From assembly GCF_014192715.1 (NCBI RefSeq), contig NZ_JACHYH010000012.1:1-62762 (forward strand): 62,762 nucleotides of DNA, written 5' to 3'. Under the pieces are notes generated by a model that was not told where the DNA came from, searched no databases, and saw nothing but the letters and a program-made list of their open reading frames with translations. Below, piece after piece: positions 60,182 through 62,762 of this stretch (position 1 is its first letter; each line of letters starts with the position of its first letter). The translations under genes were made by a program, and so were the position numbers. Source of the stretch: Luteibacter sp. Sphag1AF. GTDB taxonomy: Bacteria > Pseudomonadota > Gammaproteobacteria > Xanthomonadales > Rhodanobacteraceae.

Positions 60182-60258
60182 CGGGGTGTAGCGCAGCCTG
60201 GTAGCGCACTACGCTGGGGGTGTAGTGGTCGCGAGTTCGAATCTCGCCACCCCGACCA
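60182..60258 (+). tRNA. tRNA-Pro (anticodon GGG)
   Basis: 77-nt cloverleaf: acceptor CGGGGTG/CACCCCG with discriminator A and encoded CCA, D-arm AGCGCAGCCTGGTAGCGC, anticodon loop CTGGGGG (GGG), T-loop GTTCGAA. Reads CCC and CCU. Ended by the terminator at 60275-60303. Confidence 0.96.
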
Positions 60259-60274
60259 ATTCGGCAACATATTC

Positions 60275-60303
60275 AAAAAGACGCCCCTGGGCGTCTTTTT
60301 TTT
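60275..60303 (+). terminator. Intrinsic terminator of tRNA-Pro
   Basis: GACGCC (60280-60285)/GGCGTC (60290-60295) with loop CCTG, preceded by AAAAA and followed by eight T. Confidence 0.9.
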
Positions 60304-60386
60304 GGTTCATCGCGGATTACCGGGGAGGACGTCAGCGATGAGCGGTAGTCATCATGCCGCTGGTGCATCCATTTTGATGCGCCAAA

Positions 60387-60953
60387 CTAATTTGGCTCGC
60401 TGTCGAATGCGTCTTTGTCACCTTGTCCAGCCAAGACAGTGGGACCGCCCTGTGCCGAAGAGAAGATAAAGGTGTAGTCGAGGCTGAACGCTTTGAGCGA
60501 CCTGGACTGATTGACATTGCCGTGCCCGTCATCAGTCTCGGTTACAACAACCAACGGGCTGAATGACCAATGCATTATCGCGTTCTTGCATGCCTCCACG
60601 AACATGGAGCGTTGCTCGTCGGAAGCAGGGTCCAGGTCCCGGACCTCGATAACGGCGCCATCCGTGTTGATGATAGCTTTCACGCGAATCGTGACATCGG
60701 CGAGGTGCTTGCCTGCAAGTGATGCCGGATAGATTGGATTTACCCGAAACGTGGGTTGAGCACCGAAGGCGTGTTCTGCTTTAGCCAGTTGGTATTGGCC
60801 AGAAGCCAGGCTCGGAATCAATTTGTAGCTCACGTTCCCGCCGCGCGTGGTGGTCGATGACGGGGCGCCTGATGGTCGAGGATGGCAGGCTGTTATCAGC
60901 ACCACGCAAAAAAACAGCATTACGCTATGAATCGGATTTTGTTTTCTGGTCAA
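60387..60953 (-). CDS. Lipoprotein with TonB-C-like domain
   Basis: 188-residue protein. A lipoprotein signal peptide ends in LITAC (Cys 23). The mature part has FRVNPIYPASLAGKHLADVTI and IINTDGAVIEVRDLDPASDE, a pattern reminiscent of the TonB C-terminal fold: a proline-Tyr-Pro start, then a V-x-I-x-V-x strand and acid-rich helix. The ATG overlaps the upstream gene's stop by 4 bp. It is the third gene of the operon from the ATP-grasp remnant. Function unknown; it may be a periplasmic peptide-binding part. Confidence 0.6.
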   Translation of the reverse strand: MTRKQNPIHSVMLFFCVVLITACHPRPSGAPSSTTTRGGNVSYKLIPSLASGQYQLAKAEHAFGAQPTFRVNPIYPASLAGKHLADVTIRVKAIINTDGAVIEVRDLDPASDEQRSMFVEACKNAIMHWSFSPLVVVTETDDGHGNVNQSRSLKAFSLDYTFIFSSAQGGPTVLAGQGDKDAFDSEPN

Positions 60954-62239
60954 GAATCGCGGCTCTCTTGAAATTGGCCATCAGTGCCGACTACGCCTCG
61001 CACAACAACTCGGCCGCCGACCCAGCGAACGGTCAAGACGTAGGGGCCTGGGACGAGATACAAAGTGTCGGTTTCTTTGGCGGCAAAACGAACCCATCGA
61101 TCAGAAGGCACGGAGTCGGGTTCGCCGACCCTGCGAGCTTCGATGAGGCAGGGAAGATGTCCGGAACACCAATCCTTTCTCAATCGCACCGGTTCACGTA
61201 ATCCTCCCAGTGTTAACCACGTCTTTGGCGCGCCACGTGCGCCAGAGCCCCTGACAGTCGCGGTGACATCCACGCGATCGGGATGCGCTGACCAAGGGCG
61301 GTCATTTGGATCAAACCAGAGGTTTGTTGCGACCTCGCTCACGGTGCTTGCGCCGCAGTGTTCCAGAGTCTCCACCTGATCTAAGGACACCGAGCTAGCG
61401 TCTGATATGGAGTCGAGCCGCTCTGCCATCCATCCATCGGCCTTCCAGATATGTGAATATCCTCCAATTACCAAGAGTCGCTCTTTAGGATGCGCTCTCA
61501 GCCATGTTGCTAAGTGGTTGGCTTGTTCTTCTTCTCGCGGATCTCGGCCCGTAGCGTTGCTTTCGTAGGTTATAAGCTCAAATCCTTGCGCGATCGCCAT
61601 GCGGACCAGTTCGGCGTAGACCGGCTCCTGCAGATAAAACCCGGCATCGTTCGTATCGCGGACATATCCTCGCGTTGAGAGCTCATCGTCATGAAGGCTA
61701 TTGGGGCCATCACCTGGCGTCAGCGCTTCCAAAGCAAGGTAACGGAATCCAGCGTGTTTGAGTGACGGCAGCATGGCCAAAATAGAGGAACGGGTCACGG
61801 CATTGGAGTGGGACTCGTTGATCATCAAAACACGGGCATTTCCCGCGGCGAGCGCTATCGACGAACCTGCCGGCTTCGGACGGAACGATGAGGTGGGACA
61901 AGCGGTCTGCGTTCCGACGACAGGAAAGGAGGCCGCATAATGCGATGTGGCGTCCTGGTAGCGACCGAACATCGCATCAATCATAGATAAGACCTGGCCT
62001 GCCTGCCGCCGGTCGTCATGAGCGAGCTTGCCGTAAGCCCCATGGAGCTCGACGTAATGCTCGAATGCATCCCCCTTGCCTCGGAACACGTCGTTTGCCT
62101 TTGCCATAAATGCATTTAGCGGCGCGGACGGTGCCGGGGACGGCTTCGCCACGATGGGAAGGGCGAGGCATGTGGCAAGCGCTGCACGCGCCCATGTTGC
62201 TGGTTTATGCAGGAGGATTTGAAGTTTCCATTGCTTCAT
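60950..62239 (-). CDS. Exported EreA/ChaN-superfamily-like protein (429 aa)
   Basis: A basic N-terminus and hydrophobic stretch (about 15-31) suggest a signal peptide or anchor. The core resembles the EreA/ChaN/TIKI fold: INESHS (140-145) with E142/H144, LALEAL (168-173), a conserved EEEQANHLATWLRAHP (237-251), and IGGYSHIW (258-265). Family members include erythromycin esterases and heme-binding ChaN; the actual substrate is unknown. Its start lies 35 bp inside the 3' end of the ATP-grasp gene and its stop overlaps the lipoprotein by 4 bp, so all three are coupled. Confidence 0.6.
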   Translation of the reverse strand: MKQWKLQILLHKPATWARAALATCLALPIVAKPSPAPSAPLNAFMAKANDVFRGKGDAFEHYVELHGAYGKLAHDDRRQAGQVLSMIDAMFGRYQDATSHYAASFPVVGTQTACPTSSFRPKPAGSSIALAAGNARVLMINESHSNAVTRSSILAMLPSLKHAGFRYLALEALTPGDGPNSLHDDELSTRGYVRDTNDAGFYLQEPVYAELVRMAIAQGFELITYESNATGRDPREEEQANHLATWLRAHPKERLLVIGGYSHIWKADGWMAERLDSISDASSVSLDQVETLEHCGASTVSEVATNLWFDPNDRPWSAHPDRVDVTATVRGSGARGAPKTWLTLGGLREPVRLRKDWCSGHLPCLIEARRVGEPDSVPSDRWVRFAAKETDTLYLVPGPYVLTVRWVGGRVVVRGVVGTDGQFQESRDS

Positions 62240-62668
62240 AGGCGGTCTCGTGACGAGGCGCTGGGGTTTCGCCGAGATTGGTCAGGGCTAGAGATCGCTT
62301 TATGAAAGCGCGAGCGAATGCACGTGTAACGCGACCGTCGTCCAGGTCATCCAGCCAACCCCACGCACCCTCCTGGTTACATTCAAGGAAATAGATTTCA
62401 CCGCAGTCCTTAACGATCAGATCAAGGCTACCAGCAAACAGACCCAGACTCTTCATGAAGTCATTGATCTTATTCGCAACTGCATTGGGAAGGGTTGTCG
62501 GAACGAAGTCAACGATGTCCAGTCCCTTTCGCCAGTCGAGTGTTGACAGTCGATATTTTTGCGAGTCGATCTTGAACGCCAAGCTCTCACCGTCAACGTA
62601 GACCACGCGCAATTCGTGCTTTTTATCAATATAGTTTTGGAAAAAGTGCGGGCAACACGCAACTTCCT
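62205..62668 (-). pseudogene. ATP-grasp ligase, C-terminal fragment cut by an IS3-family element
   Basis: The minus-strand frame is open from 62205 up to the IS border, with protein-like sequence throughout: FFQNYIDKKHELRVVYVDGE, a KIDSQ stretch, GLDLIVKDCGEIYFLECNQE-type region, and GAWGWLDDLDDGRVTRAFAR. It matches the C-terminal half of ATP-grasp ligases of the MvdD/graspetide peptide-maturase kind. The N-terminal half (ATP-binding lobe) is missing. An internal TTG at 62612 is the first codon after which a short protein could be made. The frame continues 14 bp into the element, to a stop at 62682-62684. Confidence 0.7.
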
Positions 62669-62762
62669 TGTCGACCCCCCGTTAGTTAGTGCCAACCATA
62701 ACCCGAGGTTGCCGGGTCGTTTTGCTGCCTGAACTCGGCGGGTGTCAGCCCGCCGAGGCTGT
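62669..62762 (-). mobile_element. End of an IS3-family insertion sequence (partial)
   Basis: The terminus TGTCGACCCCCCGTTAG begins at 62669, where the ATP-grasp coding sequence is lost. Within the element, minus strand, lies the end of OrfB. The element continues off the right edge. Confidence 0.75.
62686..62762 (-). CDS. IS3-family transposase OrfB, C-terminal fragment (runs off window)
   Basis: Read on the minus strand, the end of the protein is SLGGLTPAEFRQQNDPATS and then GYGWH before TAA (62686-62688). The SLGGLTPAEF motif is the typical C-terminus of IS3-family integrase-type OrfB, close to the last catalytic region. The main part, including DDE, lies outside the window. Confidence 0.85.
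   Translation of the reverse strand, partial: SLGGLTPAEFRQQNDPATSGYGWH

Follow-up and report, generated by a model that had tools for sequence, protein, structure and literature searches.

Why does a gene for an erythromycin esterase-like protein, predicted to be exported, overlap the remains of a graspetide-type ligase gene in Luteibacter sp. Sphag1AF, and what could its product do there? The window analysed (62,762 nucleotides) is the whole of contig C12; the genome, 4.18 Mb in all, is assembled into 18 contigs. Near the end of the window lie three genes on the minus strand. The first encodes the C-terminal part of an ATP-grasp ligase (62205..62668, 5′ part missing), which matches graspetide-type profiles and whose frame is open up to 62668. 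The second, ERE (60950..62239), encodes a predicted exported protein of 429 aa in an intact frame, with an erythromycin esterase / ChaN fold. The third, TON (60387..60953, predicted TTG start), encodes a lipoprotein of 188 aa whose fold is that of the TonB C-terminal domain. The ATP-grasp stop codon (62205-62207) and the ERE ATG at 62239 give an overlap of 35 bp, and the ERE stop codon (60950-60952) and the predicted TON start at 60953 one of 4 bp; both overlaps and the coordinates in a preliminary description of this DNA proved correct on recheck. All three look like real genes, judging by the profile matches of the ligase, the homologues of ERE and the recurrence of TON.

A broken cluster beside tRNA-Pro

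The ligase gene is truncated by the end of an IS element (62669..62762, no strand assigned), inside which the contig stops. We take the element to be of IS3 type, with the C-terminus of OrfB in this stretch. Its boundary is at 62669, and an identical end (TGTCGACCCCCC...) occurs at contig ends C1, C3 and C9 with differing flanks. As the window is a complete contig, the sequence past the IS is unreadable there.

The fragment was searched with a query extended to 62678, which includes about 10 bases of the IS. It matched TIGR04187 (7.3e-30), MvdC (4.4e-29), MvdD (4.3e-23) and grasp-with-spasm (6e-19), whereas RimK gave 0.19; on these scores a RimK or glutathione-type ligase was rejected (the preliminary description had named a lysine-biosynthesis or glutathione-like ligase as examples that would refute it), and its graspetide-type assignment is borne out (matches of 7e-30 to 6e-19). 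The fragment is 73% identical to a database sequence (P0042) and 47% to the ligase of L039/G187; of four intact ligases compared, the closest reaches 53%. Similarity to the microviridin ligases MvdC and MvdD is clear, but the fragment falls below the curated cut-offs (104 against 350 bits for the curated NCBI model), as do the intact relatives L102 (157 bits) and L103 (159 bits); L102, L103 and L104 show a similar graspetide-over-RimK pattern. Because these scores lie under the TIGR04187, MvdC and MvdD cut-offs even for intact relatives, we file the fragment as a putative graspetide ATP-grasp ligase in the broad sense, outside the named subfamilies.

Is the rest of the cluster elsewhere in the genome? 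The N-terminal half of the ligase was not found in the assembly by the family profile (two weak matches on C3, E 0.25 and 0.27) or with the N-terminal 206 residues of a relative (best E 0.26, on C1), and we take these matches to be chance or other ATP-grasp enzymes. A precursor profile had no match in the assembly at E <= 0.01. Only one C39 match, on C3, passed the cut-off; its ORF encodes a stand-alone protein of 227 aa, for which reason it was rejected as the missing exporter, and no C39 transporter was found. The cluster is therefore broken in this genome, unless its missing part is unassembled. The preliminary description had likewise seen no precursor in the window, and the place beyond the IS where it thought one might lie cannot be read. 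With the ligase truncated and neither precursor nor C39 exporter found, ERE and TON are the only whole genes of the cluster and so the only ones still able to act.

The segment appears to have arrived beside a tRNA gene. A tRNA-Pro(ggg) gene (60182..60258, plus strand, by ARAGORN) marks its left edge. The ihfA-merR-tRNA stretch is matched in 23/23 genomes of the genus, and at the same site in the 22 other genomes, within flanks of about 1.5 kb, there is no match to ERE, TON or the ligase; for these reasons we read the ligase fragment-ERE-TON segment as acquired. GC content lies at 0.61-0.67 in the first 59.5 kb, then at 0.58 across ihfA-merR and at 0.54-0.58 from 60 kb on, so that part of the drop falls in conserved genes. 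The best explanation is that the three genes are the surviving downstream end of a graspetide cluster beside tRNA-Pro, cut by the IS. The region downstream of this tRNA (60182-60386 in the window) is variable in the genus: the next ORFs differ in 15/22 other genomes, 15 being those in which the script could place the tRNA, with one gene common to four genomes and another to two.

Related loci and their precursors

Which genes travel with this ligase? Ten loci (L147-L156) were reached through an alignment of ligases of the close type; a scan of genome contigs with ERE alone had found no relative. In two Lysobacter MAGs (L148, L149) and a Lysobacterales MAG (L150) an ERE adjoins the ligase on the opposite strand. 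In a Pseudomonadales MAG (L153) and Stenotrophomonas rhizophila GN_RF2.1 (L154) it lies 3′ of the ligase and is read in the same direction, which is the arrangement of the window, and in Alkalimonas amylolytica (L155) it is upstream of the precursor. The flanks read gave no ERE match in Lysobacter psychrotolerans (L147), Oleiagrimonas citrea (L151), a further Lysobacterales MAG (L152, genome G187) or an alphaproteobacterial partial match (L156). ERE thus stands beside the ligase at 6/10 loci, a C39 ABC transporter at 6/10, HlyD at 5/10 and TON at 1/10, in a set where L148-L150 seem to represent a single lineage, two loci (L149, L153) come from short contigs, and three are apparently on the same contigs as genomes G445, G067 and G187. 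In the wider ligase family, 30 of the places found (L010-L039, about 1.5 kb each side; G085, below, and others lie outside these 30) gave ERE at 0/30, TON at 2/30 and a ChaN-like protein at 1/30. The ERE-ligase linkage goes with certain ligase types.

Two further genomes show the ligase within longer rows of genes. In G085, HlyD, a C39 ABC transporter, a 42-aa double-glycine peptide, the ligase, a 73-aa ORF and ERE follow in a row, and after ERE come a 295-aa protein and a weak match to a SPASM partner (TIGR04193, 7e-7, far below cut-off); this compact cluster (L104, 5560-13434) is perhaps a grasp-with-spasm relative. In G137 the order is precursor, a weakly ChaN-like protein (E 0.03), ligase, TON, HlyD and C39 ABC transporter. 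The ChaN-like protein has 315 aa and the precursor is of a different kind (L041, 3673-10050); here, in parallel to the window, TON is paired with a protein of ChaN/Ere-like type. Ligase is followed by TON in both G137 and G187. In the G187 cluster (L040, 9218-11808) TON is immediately followed by two MacB/FtsX-like permeases, named by eye, and in one Lysobacter MAG (L148, 13487-17461) a 1324-aa ORF 3′ of the precursor resembles, by eye, a peptide-synthetase condensation domain.

The pairing of ligase and Ere-like accessory that had been proposed from the window thus recurs in 6/10 close-type loci and G085, and that of ligase and TonB-like lipoprotein in G187 and G137. For the full trio no recurrence was seen: ligase, ERE family and TON were found together only in the window.

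Might ERE and TON instead be general envelope proteins that adjoin the ligase by chance in this genome? Both families are widespread, with ERE in 116 and TON-like sequences in 113 of 398 genomes of the order (own included), and mostly lack a ligase nearby: 28/30 ERE loci sampled from the order search have none within about 1.5 kb, and among 30 TON loci sampled only the window's own has one. Same-genus ERE homologues (L008, L009) were set aside as linked relatives, there being no ligase within 17 kb. The absence of ERE from the 30 wider-family loci, and the two cases of TON there, also favour such a general role. Against this, the genes overlap in the window, and random placement would give 6/10 linked loci with a probability of about 8e-10, or 4/8 lineages with 1.6e-6, on an assumed rate of 5 EREs per 4 Mb, a span of 10 kb and an assumed lineage count. 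The recurrent linkage largely disfavours chance adjacency, and we regard this explanation as very improbable. Since ERE is widespread and mostly without a ligase nearby, the family has further roles beyond graspetide clusters, and any specificity for the peptide rests on the linkage. Some EREs away from ligases (L106, 6513-9979; L090; L092) occur as adjacent pairs.

Small ORFs with a double-glycine leader lie beside the ligase at 8/10 close-type loci, as had been anticipated, and in G085; a frame in L153 (507-671) was too unsure and is left out of this count. These precursors have 42-67 aa, with a Thr-rich core and a Gly- and Asp-rich tail, and L147 carries four copies; in L151 and L154 the genes for precursor and ligase are both whole. 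The core pattern is approximately T-x-T-x-x-P-x-G-...-(D/E/S)-D-G-x-(D/E), in which the x of (D/E/S)-D-G-x-(D/E) is Cys in L148-L150, L154, L155, G085 and one L147 copy. A leader of the form MxPF...HExD...V(S/T)GG is common to L147-L152 and L154, while those of L155 and G085 differ. The precursor profile also gave weak matches in G157 (E 0.002) and G391 (E 0.009). In graspetides, Thr hydroxyls are joined to Asp/Glu carboxyls, and by analogy the relatives' peptides presumably contain Thr-to-Asp/Glu ester links. These precursors combine a GG leader with a core unlike that of microviridin, and the earlier label 'microviridin-like' does not hold for the core.

A graspetide locus with an Ere-like gene has been reported before. 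PMC8939145 remarks that two gammaproteobacterial species carry a GG-motif precursor, an ATP-grasp ligase, a double-glycine peptidase and an Ere-like gene, the same gene set as in the linkage found here. Its remark is a single one, on two nearly identical loci, and its cluster 575 may be of the ERE family; where it speaks of TonB, it deals with outer membrane proteins linked to TonB and not with a TonB-like lipoprotein. Among searchable full texts, which take in few subscription papers, it was the sole relevant report for graspetide or ATP-grasp together with erythromycin esterase, EreA or TonB; the word 'esterase' is absent from the main text of PMC13097080, and graspetide and TonB terms both occur in PMC13352647. 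Beyond that remark, we find the linkage across several lineages and separate ERE branches, and add a core pattern, a fold comparison and a TonB-like lipoprotein.

Fold, residues and location of ERE and TON

The predicted structure places ERE in the erythromycin esterase / ChaN fold group, its best VIA matches being 3b55/2qgm/2rad, EreC, HopBA1 and ChaN. Plain Foldseek put HopBA1, toxin domains and ChaN at the top; rows for MeaB and FtsY passed 1e-3 as well, and EreC was missing from the best 50 rows. For TON no Foldseek row passed 1e-3, and both folds are therefore assigned from VIA. The earlier assignment of an exported EreA/ChaN-like protein agrees with this fold group and the predicted export. 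By sequence ERE has no Pfam Ere match at E <= 1 and matched no PDB chain, and it scores 14.0 bits against a gathering cut-off of 27.7 for the haem-binding ChaN family (PF04187, 2g5g). Of 7994 candidates scored, 39 other than ERE itself are homologues at E <= 1e-3, and the best of them shares 61% identity with it.

ERE seems to keep catalytic-type residues. E142/H144, E171, R235 and H263 are invariant in 72/72 alignment rows, of which 35 database rows (P0002-P0036) were unfiltered, and 27 (from L074-L101) were picked on the basis of an N-[E/D] pair and ORF overlap. The pattern [NE]E[SD]H served to choose most linked EREs (L153 and L008 fail it and were added from ORF lists), so that selection accounts in part for the invariance at N141, E142 and H144. 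The residues are spaced like those of EreC (E47/H50, E78, R261, H289; PMC7979712), at 27 against 28 from H to E and 28 against 28 from R to H, in sequence spacing rather than superposition. Unlike EreA and EreC as described there (6xcq, 6xcs), ERE has E-x-H in place of E-x-x-H and is predicted to be exported.

On the ERE tree the eight linked EREs fail to group as a single clade: the linked label needs 5 changes, at least 4 of them forced by supported branches, and is clustered (0/500 shuffles as low), with database rows labelled unlinked by default, L074-L101 judged over about 1.5 kb, and L153, L154 and L155 long-branched.

ERE might instead be a tailoring enzyme, working on the precursor or an ester during maturation (for example by opening one ring, or by transacylation) and needed for the product. 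The recurrent ERE-ligase linkage (6/10 loci and G085) would fit this, as would G137, where the gene that separates precursor from ligase is weakly ChaN-like, and modification is one of two options offered for the esterase-like gene in PMC8939145, a 2022 survey, the other being host resistance. However, judged by eye, the linked EREs read start with signal-like segments and the ligase does not, and at L147, L151 and L152, each with ligase and precursor, the flanks read gave no ERE match. We consider a tailoring role fairly unlikely.

TON residues ~61-169 adopt the TonB C-terminal domain fold by VIA, in keeping with the earlier call of a TonB-C-like lipoprotein. It shares this fold with TonB (PF03544) but lacks a Pfam TonB_C match, and has a lipobox instead of a membrane-spanning anchor and no long Pro-rich linker by eye; the lipobox Cys, also judged by eye, is present in 23/23 TON rows. 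Could the peptide be a metal carrier with an acidic tail, whose esters ERE would cut in the periplasm to free the metal while TON serves receptor-driven uptake? IroE cleaves enterobactin esters in this way, releasing metal. The precursor cores are acid-rich, the best VIA match of TON is the TonB domain of a siderophore transporter complex (6i97), and ChaN, of the same fold group as ERE, binds haem (title of 2g5g); against this, TON has a lipobox and no membrane-spanning anchor, and we consider this reading quite improbable.

A possible role in self-protection

What, then, might ERE do? The reading we prefer, to which we give an even chance, is that exported ERE beside graspetide clusters may protect the producer by opening the peptide rings, the cluster itself being broken here. 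From family and gene content in the relatives, the ATP-grasp ligase would cross-link the precursor core into rings, presumably through Thr-to-Asp/Glu esters, and in several of them a C39-peptidase ABC transporter and HlyD adaptor would trim and export the peptide. Outside the cytoplasm, we infer, ERE would open its side-chain lactones as Ere enzymes open macrolide lactones, leading to self-protection or turnover, and lipid-anchored TON may engage a receptor through which the peptide would re-enter. Against the opening of lactones by ERE stand the 4/10 close-type loci, one a partial match, with no ERE in the flanks read.

A more specific proposal is that ERE and TON form a two-part immunity against ring-ester peptides, which outlived the producing genes and now guards against other producers. 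The exported lactone hydrolase would open the peptide in the envelope, and TON, without an energy anchor, would occupy the TonB box of the receptor as a decoy. We think this version distinctly unlikely.

Graspetides are held by side-chain esters and amides, and in searchable papers there seems to be little work on how a producer survives or recycles its own peptide. An Ere-fold protein that repeatedly joins graspetide clusters is a direct, assayable candidate for self-protection by lactone opening. If ERE does open graspetide lactones, a fold known from macrolide resistance would be tied to a class of ribosomal peptides.
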